Of a stretch of 42,358 nucleotides of DNA, positions 26,758 through 38,314 are shown one piece after another. A program made the translations under genes and the position numbers. Position 1 is the first letter of the stretch. The number at the start of each line of letters is the position of its first letter. Below the pieces are notes generated by a model. That model ran no database searches. It was not told the DNA's origin and was given only the letters and a program-made list of their open reading frames with translations. This stretch comes from Candidatus Methylomirabilota bacterium. GTDB taxonomy: Bacteria > Methylomirabilota > Methylomirabilia > Rokubacteriales > CSP1-6. The DNA is taken from the NCBI GenBank assembly GCA_036002485.1, contig DASYTI010000009.1:1-42358 (forward strand), given 5' to 3'.

Positions 26758-27521
26758 GCCATCTTCTCCTGGCCCGGCACGGGCAGTCGGTCTCGAACGC
26801 CATCCGCCGCTTCCAGGGCAGCCAGGACGTGGAGCTGTCGGATCTCGGCGCGCGCCAGGCCGAGGCGCTGGCGCGCGTTCTCCAGAGCCGGCCCGTGGTC
26901 GCCGTCTACACGAGCCCGCTCGCGCGGGCACGACGCACGGCCGAGATCGCCGCGGCCGGCACCGATGTGCCCGTCACGCCCGTCGAGGATCTCCGCGAGC
27001 TTTGTCTGGGGGAGTGGGAGGGGCGGACGGTCGAGGAGATCCGCGCCTTGCCGGGCGATCCTTACGCCCAGTGGGTGCGGGATCCCGTCGCCTGTCTGCC
27101 TCCGGGAGGCGAGCCGCTTGCGGACGTGCAAGCTCGCGTGGTCAGGGCCATGGCCGAGATCGCCCGGGCGCATCCCAATGGCCGGCAAGTGCTGGTGGTG
27201 TGCCACGGCGGCGTCATCAGCGCTTATCTCGCCCATTGCCTCGGGCTGCCCCTGTCCTCGATCTGGCGACTGACGGTATCCAACGGCTCGCTTACCGAAG
27301 TGAGGCCGCCGCGCGTACACTCCGTCAACAACACCCGGCATCTGGCAGCTGTAGTTCGAGGTGCAGCCGAAGGCGAGCCGAGGGCTGAGTTGATCGTTCG
27401 AGGTGCAGCCGAAGGCGAGCCGAGGGCTGAGTTGATCGTTCGAGGTGCAGCCGAAGGCGAGCCGAGGGCTGAGTCAGACATCGCCCTGGGCTACCCGACG
27501 CCCACGCCTCGCGCCCCATGA
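26754..27521 (+). CDS. Histidine phosphatase (phosphoglycerate-mutase-like) with repeat-derived tail
   Basis: A 255-residue protein whose ATG overlaps the gltX stop. Residues 1-198 are a complete branch-2 histidine phosphatase: RHGQSVSN with nucleophile His9, FQGSQDVELSDLGARQAEAL, YTSPLARARRTAEI, ELCLGEWEG, and the second His in LVVCHGGVISAYLAH. The domain ends near NNTRHL. Residues 201-240 are three tandem 14-residue units (VRGAAEGEPRAELI), encoded by copies of the dispersed DNA repeat, followed by a 15-residue end. The substrate is unknown; candidates include phosphosugars and cobalamin-type phosphates. The tail is probably disordered and dispensable. Its stop overlaps the transporter ATG, so the insertion kept the frame and the coupling. 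Confidence 0.88.
   Translation: MSHLLLARHGQSVSNAIRRFQGSQDVELSDLGARQAEALARVLQSRPVVAVYTSPLARARRTAEIAAAGTDVPVTPVEDLRELCLGEWEGRTVEEIRALPGDPYAQWVRDPVACLPPGGEPLADVQARVVRAMAEIARAHPNGRQVLVVCHGGVISAYLAHCLGLPLSSIWRLTVSNGSLTEVRPPRVHSVNNTRHLAAVVRGAAEGEPRAELIVRGAAEGEPRAELIVRGAAEGEPRAESDIALGYPTPTPRAP
27354..27474 (+). repeat. Tandem 42-bp repeat inside the phosphatase gene (dispersed repeat, copies C1-C3)
   Basis: Units start at 27354, 27396 and 27438. The first two are identical over all 42 bases; the third stops matching after 37. Each runs GTTCGAGGTGCAGCCG ... GAGGGCTGAGTTGATC, and its ends match the intergenic copies at 31020 and 34208. The unit length is a multiple of three, so the copies read through without a stop. 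Identity of adjacent units suggests recent amplification. Confidence 0.93.
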
Positions 27522-34468: not shown

Positions 34469-37400
34469 ATGAACGCCCGCCTGTTCGTCGTGGACGGCCC
34501 CGGATATCTTTACCGCGCGTATCACGCGCTGCCCTATCTTTCGAACTCGAAGGGCCAGCCCTCCAACGCCGTCTTCGGCATGTCCACGATGCTCTGGAAG
34601 CTCCTCCGTGATGAGAATCCGGAGTACGCCGCCGTGGCCTGGGACCCGCCGGGGCCGACGTTCAGGGAAGCGAAGCTGCCGACCTACAAGGAGACGCGTC
34701 CCGGGATGCCGGACGACCTCCGGAGCCAGATCGCCCTGGTGATGCGCGTCTTCGAGGCGCTCCGGTTGCCGCTTCTGGAAGTGCCGGGCTTCGAGGCCGA
34801 TGATGTGCTGGGCACCCTGGTGGAGCGCATGAAGAGCGAGCCGGTCGAGATGGTCCTCGTCACGAGCGACAAGGACATGCTCCAGCTCGTGAGCCCGCGT
34901 GTCCGCGTCCTCTCGGCCAACGCCCGGGGGGAGCCCGTGTGGTACGACGGGGCGGCCGTCACCGCCAAGTGGGGCGTGACCCCAGAGCAGATTCCTGACC
35001 TGCTGGCGCTGATGGGCGACAGCATCGACAACATCCCCGGCGTGCCGGGGATCGGAGAGAAGACGGCCGTCAAGCTCATCAGCCAGTTCGGCGGCGTGTC
35101 GCGGCTCTACGAGAACCTCACCCTCGTGCCCGGCAAGCTCCGCGAGGCGCTGGCCGCGAACCGCCAGGCCGCCCTTCTCTCGCGCGAGATCGCCACCGTG
35201 AGCACGCGGGTGCCCATCGCGCAGAGTCTCGAGGACTTCCGCCGCCAGGAGCCCGACTGGGAGCGGCTGCGGGCGCTCTGGAGCGAGCTCGAGTTCCACA
35301 CGCTCATCCGCCAGCTTCCCGCCTCGGCCACGCCCGAGATCACCGCGGAGGCGCTCCCGAGCCTGACGGGACCCGAGGCGCTCGAGCGCTGGCTCGCCGA
35401 TGTCCCCGCCGATGCGCCCGTCGCCGTGGACTGGGTGGGGGAAGGCTCGCCGCCCGAACCCGCCCTCGGAGCCCTCGGCCTCTTTCATCCGGCGGCGGGC
35501 GCCGCGGTCTTGACCCTCGGAACGGTGGCGCCCGACTTCGGCGGCCGTCGCCTCATCGGCCATGACGTCAAGCCGGTGATCGAGTGGTGGCTGTCCCGCG
35601 GCGGGATCGTTCCGGTCTTCGAGGACACGGCCGTGGGCGCCTACCTGCTCAATCCTGCCCGCACGAGCTACAAGCTCGACGAGGTCTGCGCCGAGCTGCT
35701 GGGCGAAGGGCCGGGCCTCGCCGCCCCCGGGACGCGCGCCCGCTGGGTGTGGCAGCTCTGGGAGATGCTGCCGCGCGCGCTCAACGAAGTCGGTCTCGAC
35801 GCGCTCTACGACGATCTCGAGCGCCCGCTCGTGCCCGTGCTCGCCCTCATGGAGCGCCACGGCATCCGGGTCGACCCCGCGCGGCTCGAAGAATTCTCCA
35901 AGGAGCTCGACGGCACCCTCGTCGGTCTCACGCGCCAGATTTACTCGCTGGCGGGCGGCGAGTTCAATATCGGCTCGCCCAAGCAGCTGGCCCAGGTGCT
36001 CTTCGCGAAGCTCAAGCTGCCGCCCGTCAAGAAGACCAAGACGGGCTATTCCACCGATGCCGACGTCCTGGAGCAGCTCGCCCTCGGCCACGAGCTGCCC
36101 GCCAAGATCATCGAGCACCGCACGCTCGCCAAGCTCAAGTCCACCTACGCCGATGCCCTGCCGGGGCTGATCCATCCGTCCACCGGCCGCATCCACACCT
36201 CCTTCAATCAGCTCGTCGCGGCCACGGGCCGGCTGTCCTGTCTTCCCGCGGGCGCTCTAGTAAACACCCAGAGTGGACTTGTGGGCATCGAAGACGTCCG
36301 CCCAGGGGATTTCATACGCACGGCGCGTGGTCCGCGCCGTGTGCTCGCTTCCGAACAGACAGGCGTGAAATCTGTCGTGGCGATTGTCCTTTCCACGGGA
36401 GTGGTATTCCGCTGTAGTCCTGATCATAAGCTGCGGAGCCTGGGTCAGTGGGTCGAAGCGTCCGCGTTGAAGCCCGGCGATCCTCTCTACATGAGCTTCA
36501 CTGCGGGGTTGTTCGGTTCTTCGATCGAGTTTGAAGTGGAACCGACTGCAGCCTATCGCACGCGCAAGACGCCTTCTCTGCCCACCGGCTGGAGCCAGGA
36601 TCTCGCCGAGTTAGTTGGATACGCGATGGCCGATGGCCACATCGCGCACAGCAACTACAATGGAAAGCCAGCCCAACTAGTCCTTGCCTTTGACTGGCAT
36701 GACGAGGATCTGGTTCGGCATTTCACTCATGTCATCCGTGAGTTGTTCGGAAAGACGCCGACTTTCCGAAGGACTCGAACGTGCCCGATCTTGATGCTGT
36801 CGAGCATGGACGTGTGCGGCCTCTTAGAGCAGCTCGGGGCGGGCGGTACCTCGAAGGTCATTCAAGTGCCTCCCGGACTGTTCAGTGCGCCAAGAGAAAT
36901 CGCGGCTTCATTCCTCCGTGGATACTTTGAGGGGGATGGAACGGCTTCCCGTGCTCTTTCGGTGCGGTCGGTGTCACGCGACATGCTGGAAGGAGTTCAC
37001 CACCTTCTAAGTCTGTTTGGAATACCGTCGAGCATCGCGGATGGCAGGGACGATCCACGTGGATACGCGCCGCGCCACACCTTGTTTGTGCTGGGGGACA
37101 GATTCAAGCGCACGTTTCGCGACCAGATTGGGTTCATCTCTGCCAAGAAGCGAGGTCAACTCGATCGGCTGCTCAGCAAACCCACTGAGAGGAGCACGGC
37201 GGAAGTTCTAACTCTTCCCAATCCTCACGAGATCCTGAGCAGCAAGTCGACGTTGTATGACTGCGAGAGGCGTTCAGACGGGAAAGGTCTCCCGGCTCTC
37301 TACGTCTTTGTCCATAGATTCGCCGCGGGTCGAACTACCTGCACGCTGCGTCGAGCCGAGTCGATCATAAGCGCTCTGAAGACGGGCGACACTGATGTGC

Positions 37401-38314
37401 CTGAATTCCTGGACGAGGCGGTATCTCGGCAGTACTTCGAGGTCGCGGCGCGATCTGTGTCCTGGGAGCCACCGGTGCCCATGTACGACATCGCTGTCGA
37501 GGGCGAGGAGTACATTGCGGACGGCATTGTGGTTCACAATTCGTCGGCGCCCAACCTCCAGAACATCCCGATCCGGACGGAGCTCGGTCGTCGCATCCGC
37601 GCGGCCTTCCTGCCCGAGCCCGGCTGGCGCTTCCTCGCCGCGGACTACTCGCAGATCGAGCTCCGCATCCTGGCCCACGTCTCGGGCGAGGAGAGCCTCA
37701 TCGCCGCCTTCCGCGCGGGCGAGGACATTCACCAGCGCACGGCCGCCGAGGTCTTCGGGGTCGAGGTCACCGCGGTCGTGGCCGAGCAGCGCGCCATCGC
37801 CAAGACCACCAACTTCGCCGTGATCTACGGCGTCACCGCCTTCGGCCTGTCGAACCAGCTATCTTTCACTCCCAAGCAAGCGCAGGAGTTTCTCGACCGG
37901 TTCTTCGGGCGCCACGCGAAGGTCAAGGCCTATCTCGAGCGCACGGTGGCCGAGGGGCGCCAGCGCGGCTTCGTGCAGACGCTGCTGGGCCGCCGACGGT
38001 ACATCCCGGAGCTCCAGAGCGGCAATCCCAACCTCCGCGGCTTCGCCGAGCGCATGGCGACCAACGCGCCGATCCAGGGCACCGCGGCCGACCTCGTCAA
38101 GATCGCCATGGTGCGGATGGCCAAGGCCCTCGCGGAGGGCGGGTTCAAGGCGCGGATGCTCCTTCAAGTGCACGATGAATTGCTCTTCGAGGCGCCGGAG
38201 GACGAGCTGGCCCGGCTCGAGGCGCTGACCCGTGAGGTGATGGAGTCGGCCATGGCTCTCGACGTGCCGCTCAAGGTGGACATCAAGACCGGAGCCGACT
38301 GGGAACAGGCGTGA
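34469..38314 (+). CDS. polA: DNA polymerase I interrupted by an intein
   Basis: A 1281-codon gene; removing the intein (residues 591-1024) leaves an 847-residue polymerase of normal size. The N-terminal 5' nuclease domain has FVVDGPGYLYRAYHAL, FEADDVLGTL, VTSDKDMLQLV and GDSIDNIPGVPGIGEKTA. The middle domain (about 305-420) is 3'-5'-exonuclease-like but degenerate: the DxE site reads Asp321-Trp-Val, so proofreading is doubtful. The polymerase domain has TGRLS then the intein, SSAPNLQNIPIRTE, motif A (DYSQIELRILAH, Asp1059), motif B (EQRAIAKTTNFAVIYG) and motif C (VHDELLFEAP, His1235-Asp-Glu). Pol I fills gaps and removes RNA primers. The intein must splice out for activity. The stop overlaps coaE. 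Confidence 0.96.
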   Translation: MNARLFVVDGPGYLYRAYHALPYLSNSKGQPSNAVFGMSTMLWKLLRDENPEYAAVAWDPPGPTFREAKLPTYKETRPGMPDDLRSQIALVMRVFEALRLPLLEVPGFEADDVLGTLVERMKSEPVEMVLVTSDKDMLQLVSPRVRVLSANARGEPVWYDGAAVTAKWGVTPEQIPDLLALMGDSIDNIPGVPGIGEKTAVKLISQFGGVSRLYENLTLVPGKLREALAANRQAALLSREIATVSTRVPIAQSLEDFRRQEPDWERLRALWSELEFHTLIRQLPASATPEITAEALPSLTGPEALERWLADVPADAPVAVDWVGEGSPPEPALGALGLFHPAAGAAVLTLGTVAPDFGGRRLIGHDVKPVIEWWLSRGGIVPVFEDTAVGAYLLNPARTSYKLDEVCAELLGEGPGLAAPGTRARWVWQLWEMLPRALNEVGLDALYDDLERPLVPVLALMERHGIRVDPARLEEFSKELDGTLVGLTRQIYSLAGGEFNIGSPKQLAQVLFAKLKLPPVKKTKTGYSTDADVLEQLALGHELPAKIIEHRTLAKLKSTYADALPGLIHPSTGRIHTSFNQLVAATGRLSCLPAGALVNTQSGLVGIEDVRPGDFIRTARGPRRVLASEQTGVKSVVAIVLSTGVVFRCSPDHKLRSLGQWVEASALKPGDPLYMSFTAGLFGSSIEFEVEPTAAYRTRKTPSLPTGWSQDLAELVGYAMADGHIAHSNYNGKPAQLVLAFDWHDEDLVRHFTHVIRELFGKTPTFRRTRTCPILMLSSMDVCGLLEQLGAGGTSKVIQVPPGLFSAPREIAASFLRGYFEGDGTASRALSVRSVSRDMLEGVHHLLSLFGIPSSIADGRDDPRGYAPRHTLFVLGDRFKRTFRDQIGFISAKKRGQLDRLLSKPTERSTAEVLTLPNPHEILSSKSTLYDCERRSDGKGLPALYVFVHRFAAGRTTCTLRRAESIISALKTGDTDVPEFLDEAVSRQYFEVAARSVSWEPPVPMYDIAVEGEEYIADGIVVHNSSAPNLQNIPIRTELGRRIRAAFLPEPGWRFLAADYSQIELRILAHVSGEESLIAAFRAGEDIHQRTAAEVFGVEVTAVVAEQRAIAKTTNFAVIYGVTAFGLSNQLSFTPKQAQEFLDRFFGRHAKVKAYLERTVAEGRQRGFVQTLLGRRRYIPELQSGNPNLRGFAERMATNAPIQGTAADLVKIAMVRMAKALAEGGFKARMLLQVHDELLFEAPEDELARLEALTREVMESAMALDVPLKVDIKTGADWEQA
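36239..37540 (+). mobile_element. Class 1 intein with LAGLIDADG homing endonuclease in PolA
   Basis: A 434-residue in-frame insertion between TGRLS and SSAPNLQNIP. The first residue is Cys591 (block A, CLPAGALVNTQSGLVGIEDV); block B is VVFRCSPDHKL, with Ser where Thr is usual and the key His kept. Block F is MYDIAVEGEEYIADG, and it ends Val-Val-His-Asn before Ser1025. The core holds two dodecapeptide motifs, LVGYAMADGH (Asp722) and LRGYFEGDGT (Asp823), so the endonuclease looks intact. Three hand-counted 60-base blocks gave 50, 55 and 60 percent GC, against 72 percent in one flanking polA block. That and its A/T-ending codons suggest transfer from another genome. The splice site lies between motifs that grip the primer-template. 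Confidence 0.96.

Follow-up and report, generated by a model that had tools for sequence, protein, structure and literature searches.

A predicted class 1 intein with a homing endonuclease domain in bacterial DNA polymerase I, and altered codons at its empty insertion sites

The window analyzed here is the whole of a 42,358-nucleotide stretch from a Candidatus Methylomirabilota bacterium (contig DASYTI010000009.1, assembly GCA_036002485.1), and the element in question is an intein within its polA gene, which encodes DNA polymerase I (Pol I). The source genome of the window is designated G000; other genomes and loci are cited by internal labels (G, C and L numbers). PolA, intein and PolA again are read in a single frame across one open reading frame (ORF) of 1281 amino acids (Table 1). 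The translated insert comprises 434 residues without a stop, beginning with CLPAG and ending with GIVVHN, and its junctions in the protein are TGRLS/C...HN/SSAPNLQ (outside parentheses, slashes mark insertion junctions throughout). Cys1 is encoded by TGT at 36239-36241, His433-Asn434 by CACAAT ending at 37540, and Ser+1 by TCG at 37541-37543, while the block B His63 lies within SPDHKL. The exteins score as DNA polymerase I (NCBIfam PRK05755, E 6.8e-288) and carry the 5'-3' exonuclease and DNA_pol_A domains of Pfam, which is the full PolA set outside the insert; PolA minus the insert has 847 amino acids and the normal motif ATGRLSSSAPNLQNIP. A search of the G000 genome for a second PolA polymerase found none, the sole homologue being a stand-alone 298-amino-acid 5'-3' exonuclease (C183), and for this reason intact Pol I should depend on splicing of the intein.

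Table 1. Positions in the window of the polA gene, its intein and the putative homing site.
Feature	Positions	Strand	Evidence
polA precursor gene, 1281 codons + stop	34469-38314	+	ORF, translation, NCBIfam
N-extein of PolA, 590 codons, last residues ATGRLS	34469-36238	+	translation; NCBIfam PRK05755 match 4-591
Putative homing site, left half, GTCGCGGCCACGGGCCGGCTGTCC; contiguous with 37541-37576 in empty alleles; inferred extent	36215-36238	+	synonymous-divergence and A/T-codon peak
Intein, 434 amino acids, Cys1 to Asn434	36239-37540	+	translation; same insert in three further genomes
N-terminal splicing (Hint) part, block A CLPAG, block B SPDH63KL; approximate limits	36239-36568	+	Hint_2, PDB matches
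LAGLIDADG homing endonuclease domain, motifs LAELVGYAMADG (Asp132) and FLRGYFEGDG (Asp233); approximate limits	36569-37228	+	Pfam
C-terminal splicing part, block F MYDIAVEGEEYIADG, block G IVVHN	37424-37540	+	translation, homologue alignment
C-extein of PolA, 257 codons + stop, from Ser+1 SSAPNLQNIP	37541-38314	+	translation, Pfam
Putative homing site, right half; extent inferred	37541-37576	+	synonymous-divergence and A/T-codon peak

The insert appears to be a full-length, splicing-competent class 1 intein, as judged from its key residues and its in-frame homologues. Cys1 (in four homologues), His63, His433-Asn434 and Ser+1 are all present, and exact empty alleles exist. Profile matches to the Hint fold are weak yet consistent: residues 6-96 match the MtuRecA and gp41-1 inteins in PDB, the Hint_2 profile matches all four homologous inteins, and a Pfam Intein_splicing match (E 3.4e-6) extends to residue 434. 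Between the splicing parts, Pfam LAGLIDADG_3 matches residues 221-298 (E 1e-15), and both LAGLIDADG motifs retain an aspartate at the catalytic position. C1, H63, D132, D233, H433 and N434 are invariant across the four homologues. For the endonuclease part, the best PDB matches are the archaeal VMA (V-ATPase) inteins 7QSS/7QSU (E 3e-8), whose host protein differs. A preliminary description of the window had reported a 434-codon in-frame insert in polA together with Cys1, the block B His, the terminal His-Asn and the +1 Ser. Its coordinates prove exact to the base on translation and each named residue is there; the LAGLIDADG domain went unmentioned.

Three further genomes carry this insert at that very codon junction: G001 from the same genus (76% identical), G033 from another (67%) and G073 from a third (59%). 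These homologues are 434-435 amino acids long, are all in frame and keep all key residues. The source is a 253-contig draft assembly, and the preliminary description had named an assembly chimera, or altered splicing residues in independent reads, as grounds for abandoning the intein. Because the insert and its junction recur in three other genomes at this level of divergence, chance and an assembly chimera are excluded, and a decayed, non-splicing element is extremely improbable. Seven congeners have the exact empty site, namely G002, G003 and G004 in the genus of G000, G013 and G080 in that of G033, and G026 and G074 in that of G073; in G002 and G003 the uninterrupted sequence reads ATGRLS/SSAPNLQNIP. 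The comparison with intein-free PolA of close relatives that had been proposed thus gives a precise uninterrupted site. One candidate, G004 as a genome holding coexisting intein-plus and intein-minus versions, was rejected, since its two contigs overlap by 174 identical bases and have the empty site. The intein is patchily spread, being found in 4 of 57 family genomes that belong to three genera, all of which also include species with the exact empty site. No close relative was found in any other of the 95 genomes of the phylum, or in the viral contigs, phages and plasmids searched.

Genomes were also searched by pattern. Among 84,980 species genomes, the listed bacterial matches to TGRLSC with downstream sequence contained no intein, the Cys being a natural substitution (one match ran off the available stretch). 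In Chlamydiae, PolA often has Cys instead of the second Ser in TGRLSS, and several other phyla show the same replacement (L033-L136), so TGRLSC alone is no intein marker. A stricter pattern, limited to inteins in which Cys1 is followed by a hydrophobic residue, gave no match in 396 genomes from a group centred on Acidobacteria and one chance match, outside PolA, in 398 genomes from a group centred on Proteobacteria.

The ratio of nonsynonymous to synonymous divergence (dN/dS) in the endonuclease region is 0.07 for G000-G001, 0.10 for G000-G033 and 0.09 for G001-G033; comparisons involving G073 gave saturated or higher values (0.13, 0.22). Where dS is measurable, the region is under purifying selection. 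Third-position G+C content (GC3) is 0.65-0.77 in the intein versus 0.89-0.94 in the exteins, which fits either a foreign origin or weaker codon selection. Each carrier clusters with intein-free species in the extein tree (support 0.99-1.00), except that the placement of G001 within the G002/G003 clade is weak (clade 1.00, inner node 0.586). This tree requires the intein to have been gained four times or lost precisely about seven or more times, and the data fit both. The expectation that precise loss would be hard is not supported in that form: since each of the four carriers groups with precisely empty species, either precise loss or repeated gain must be frequent. Note that dS was dropped as a discriminator between vertical and horizontal descent, as synonymous differences between exteins plateau near 0.45. 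A named Methylomirabilis locus (L099) proved unsuitable for anchoring the taxonomy, since it shares only 40% identity with G045, a member of the same class.

Empty sites carry a distinct codon pattern. In intein-free relatives, both synonymous divergence and codons ending in A or T peak from about -5 to +10 codons around the insertion point. Within genus g1, synonymous divergence at the site was 11/19 (0.58) versus 0.17 in the flanks for G000-G004 (p 1e-4), 10/20 (0.50) versus 0.09 for G001-G002 (p 1e-5) and 13/20 (0.65) versus 0.13 for G002-G003 (p 4e-7). In genera without the intein, within-genus pairs gave site/flank ratios of 0.3-1.6, none significant. The changes favour codons ending in A or T, against a background of about 91% G+C at the third positions of the gene. 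Using a 15-codon window, with expected counts obtained by re-dealing codons within each amino acid, empty alleles of carrier genera have 25/90 A/T-ending codons at the site (8.0 expected). Intein-bearing alleles have 7/60 (5.1 expected), an intein-free SQ-type clade 19/238 (14.5 expected), and an O-helix control site in the same genomes 4/89 (7.6 expected). When intein-free SS-type alleles were scanned, the maximum among 596 windows started four codons before the insertion point. The altered codons vary between empty alleles, which suggests several independent recoding events. The altered tracts span little sequence, have the break point at their centre and, in G004, G013 and G026, include amino-acid changes. 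Neither the empty congeners nor this recoding, nor a second PolA site described below, figured in the preliminary description, whose intein and insertion site are themselves borne out.

Taken together, the element is very probably a mobile, splicing class 1 intein whose LAGLIDADG homing endonuclease is intact. In the mechanism that we propose, polA would be translated into a 1281-amino-acid precursor. An N-S acyl shift at Cys1 would be followed by passage of the N-extein to Ser+1 and by cyclization of Asn434 assisted by His433, yielding an 847-amino-acid PolA with the uninterrupted motif ATGRLSSSAPNLQNIP and the spliced junction ATGRLSSSAPNLQ. The endonuclease would then cut intein-free polA alleles that it encounters, and repair would copy the intein in. 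Intein-free lineages may persist partly through changed, mostly synonymous, target sites that are poorly cut, a step that we put forward tentatively. The A/T-codon cluster would then be the footprint of past endonuclease attack and escape. Homing-cycle theory includes resistant empty alleles (PMC3229294). In published work, such endonucleases tolerated single synonymous changes, while amino-acid-changing ones strongly reduced homing (PMC3024317), so clusters of changes, as at the empty polA sites, would be needed for escape. The simplest account would be that an active homing endonuclease cuts normal polA sites and that intein-free lineages have become enriched for altered ones. Somewhat short of an even chance, in our estimate, is the fuller proposal that empty sites in this family repeatedly and independently gained synonymous clusters that block the endonuclease. 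If true, this would amount to silent, naturally arisen immunity against a homing element, preserved in genomes of uncultured bacteria. The recoding footprint is what most deserves follow-up.

Several points weigh against this account. Splicing, cleavage and homing are predictions from sequence. The Intein_splicing score of 27.4 is under the curated cut-off of 35.8, and a single-sequence AlphaFold2 model reached a confidence (pLDDT) of 33. Glu replaces the usual His of block F, and Ser replaces Thr in block B; either substitution is found in working inteins. The divergence peak at the site is weak in genus g10 (ratios of 1.4 to 2.1), and the carrier G073 shows a mild A/T-codon excess of its own (3/15, p 0.045). 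The tract window was picked after the data had been viewed and the genomes are phylogenetically related, so p-values should be considered guides only. In nearby SS-type genera where no site-a intein (one at TGRLS/S) was seen, empty alleles have 27/105 A/T-ending codons versus 13.1 expected, and recoding is therefore not confined to known carrier genera, although an earlier encounter of these genera with the intein is conceivable. Finally, dN ranks the four inteins in the same order as their exteins, with intein/extein pairs for G000 versus G001, G033 and G073 of 0.159/0.106, 0.264/0.186 and 0.359/0.354.

This last point would also suit vertical descent with repeated loss. The intein could be mainly ancestral and have been precisely lost many times, with the endonuclease playing little present role. 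We consider that history somewhat improbable: congruence of intein and extein carries little weight with four tips, the extein tree would demand about seven or more precise losses, and the purifying selection seen in dS-measurable pairs is unexpected for an idle, vertically fixed enzyme, which under the homing-cycle model is not expected to be so constrained. A different doubt concerns the recoded sites, which might be scars, either brief stretches of gene conversion from diverged donors lacking the intein or products of error-prone repair of endonuclease breaks. Tracts that are short, centred on the break point and in three genomes altered in amino acids are what scars would leave. No available genome, however, closely matches the tracts of G002, G004 and G026 (nearest 10, 13 and 14 mismatches per 60 bases, with thin sampling of donors), and the break-repair version still needs past cutting at the site; scarring seems unlikely as the explanation. 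The excess in SS-type genera without a known site-a intein would also suit a codon anomaly independent of the intein, such as some sequence peculiarity local to polA of the SS-type lineage. That is more unlikely still, as intein-bearing alleles of the same lineage as a group show no excess, nor does the SQ-type clade or the O-helix site, and codons that vary by allele are not one inherited feature.

Other elements also sit in this stretch of polA. We take the E. coli Pol I motif to be TGRLSSTDPNLQ, on which residues were counted, and Arg668, two residues before the insertion point, contacts the primer-template. Counting back along this motif from the position of the SPO1 intron would place the G000 intein between the equivalents of Ser670 and Ser671. 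The element of Bacillus phage SPO1 lies in DNA polymerase I at E. coli Asn675/Leu676 (PMC2814812); like the intein it is endonuclease-bearing and occupies nearly the same polA stretch, but it is an RNA group I intron five codons downstream. The search of PolA for insertions at the exact site that had been recommended returned, besides the three bacterial homologues, unrelated inteins in phage contigs L236, L237 and L145, at the same codon junction (TGR(L/F)S/C...N/(S/C)); L236 and L237 derive from contigs of 236 and 218 kb. These phage inteins have 326-336 amino acids versus 434 in G000; L236 and L237 are HNH-like, and L145 ends in Gly-Asn. L236 is 27% identical to the G000 intein over 95 amino acids, and L237 and L145 have no significant similarity to it. 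Since little is shared beyond the Hint core, we read the TGRLS/S junction as colonized independently by unrelated inteins in bacteria and phages. With the SPO1 intron and these inteins clustered there, one polA stretch is targeted by an RNA intron plus several inteins.

A second PolA site (site b) lies in the fingers O-helix, between K and T of AK-TVNFGVIYG, and is occupied in G021, G031 and phage L237. Unlike the G000 intein in position, the bacterial site-b inteins of G021 (L152) and G031 (L148; AK/C...SHN/TVNFGVIYG) lie in PolA of the same bacterial family and are full-length and LAGLIDADG-type, with 443 amino acids, 72% mutual identity and about 27% identity to that of G000. Salmonella phage vB_SenS-Ent3 (HG934470) has an annotated intein, also in a family A polymerase, one residue from site b (GKA/C...AHN/CELGLGY; 299 amino acids, only splicing domains annotated). 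In L237 (IMGVR_UViG_3300017963_000192), the PolA ORF of this large phage spans 1931 codons and holds three inteins, two of them at the two PolA sites and the third in an apparent uracil-DNA-glycosylase-like N-terminal part.

The preliminary description had set PolA outside the usual bacterial hosts. The host protein is not new, because PolA inteins occur in phages at this very junction and PolA is listed as a bacterial host in a 2018 review table (PMC5874633), whose entry concerns the same host protein class, names no site, species or sequence, and gives a description to which the TGRLS/S position is not comparable. No paper on a PolA intein at TGRLS/S was found in an open-access literature library, and an earlier report may exist in catalogues beyond it. 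The present analysis contributes a conserved PolA intein from bacteria that is well supported and comes with a clean series of carrier and empty congeneric genomes, together with a family A polymerase junction that unrelated inteins occupy in bacteria and phages.

Beyond the four carriers, the nearest relatives of the intein are the site-b PolA inteins and inteins of class II ribonucleotide reductase, about 25-27% identical. The latter (HN/SGGGTGFAFS), from the same phylum, are the top-scoring relatives outside PolA (E 2e-24, 25% over the full length); they occupy another host, assigned from the motif alone, at another site. G000 also has a second intein, in DnaE on the minus strand of contig C106 (L151; GYGFNK/C...AVHN/SHGACY), with 421 amino acids and 27% identity to the PolA intein. 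Several family members have inteins ending THN/CDEEFEAF in a MoxR-like AAA ATPase (L239, which is G021:C202, L184 and L185), and in G015:C129 (L164, L181, L222) a single open frame spanning 2316 codons shows three or more intein matches. Elsewhere in the window, three in-frame 42-base tandem repeats (GTTCGAGGTGCAGCCGAAGGCGAGCCGAGGGCTGAGTTGATC) lie at 27354-27479, at the 3' end of a phosphoglycerate-mutase-like ORF.

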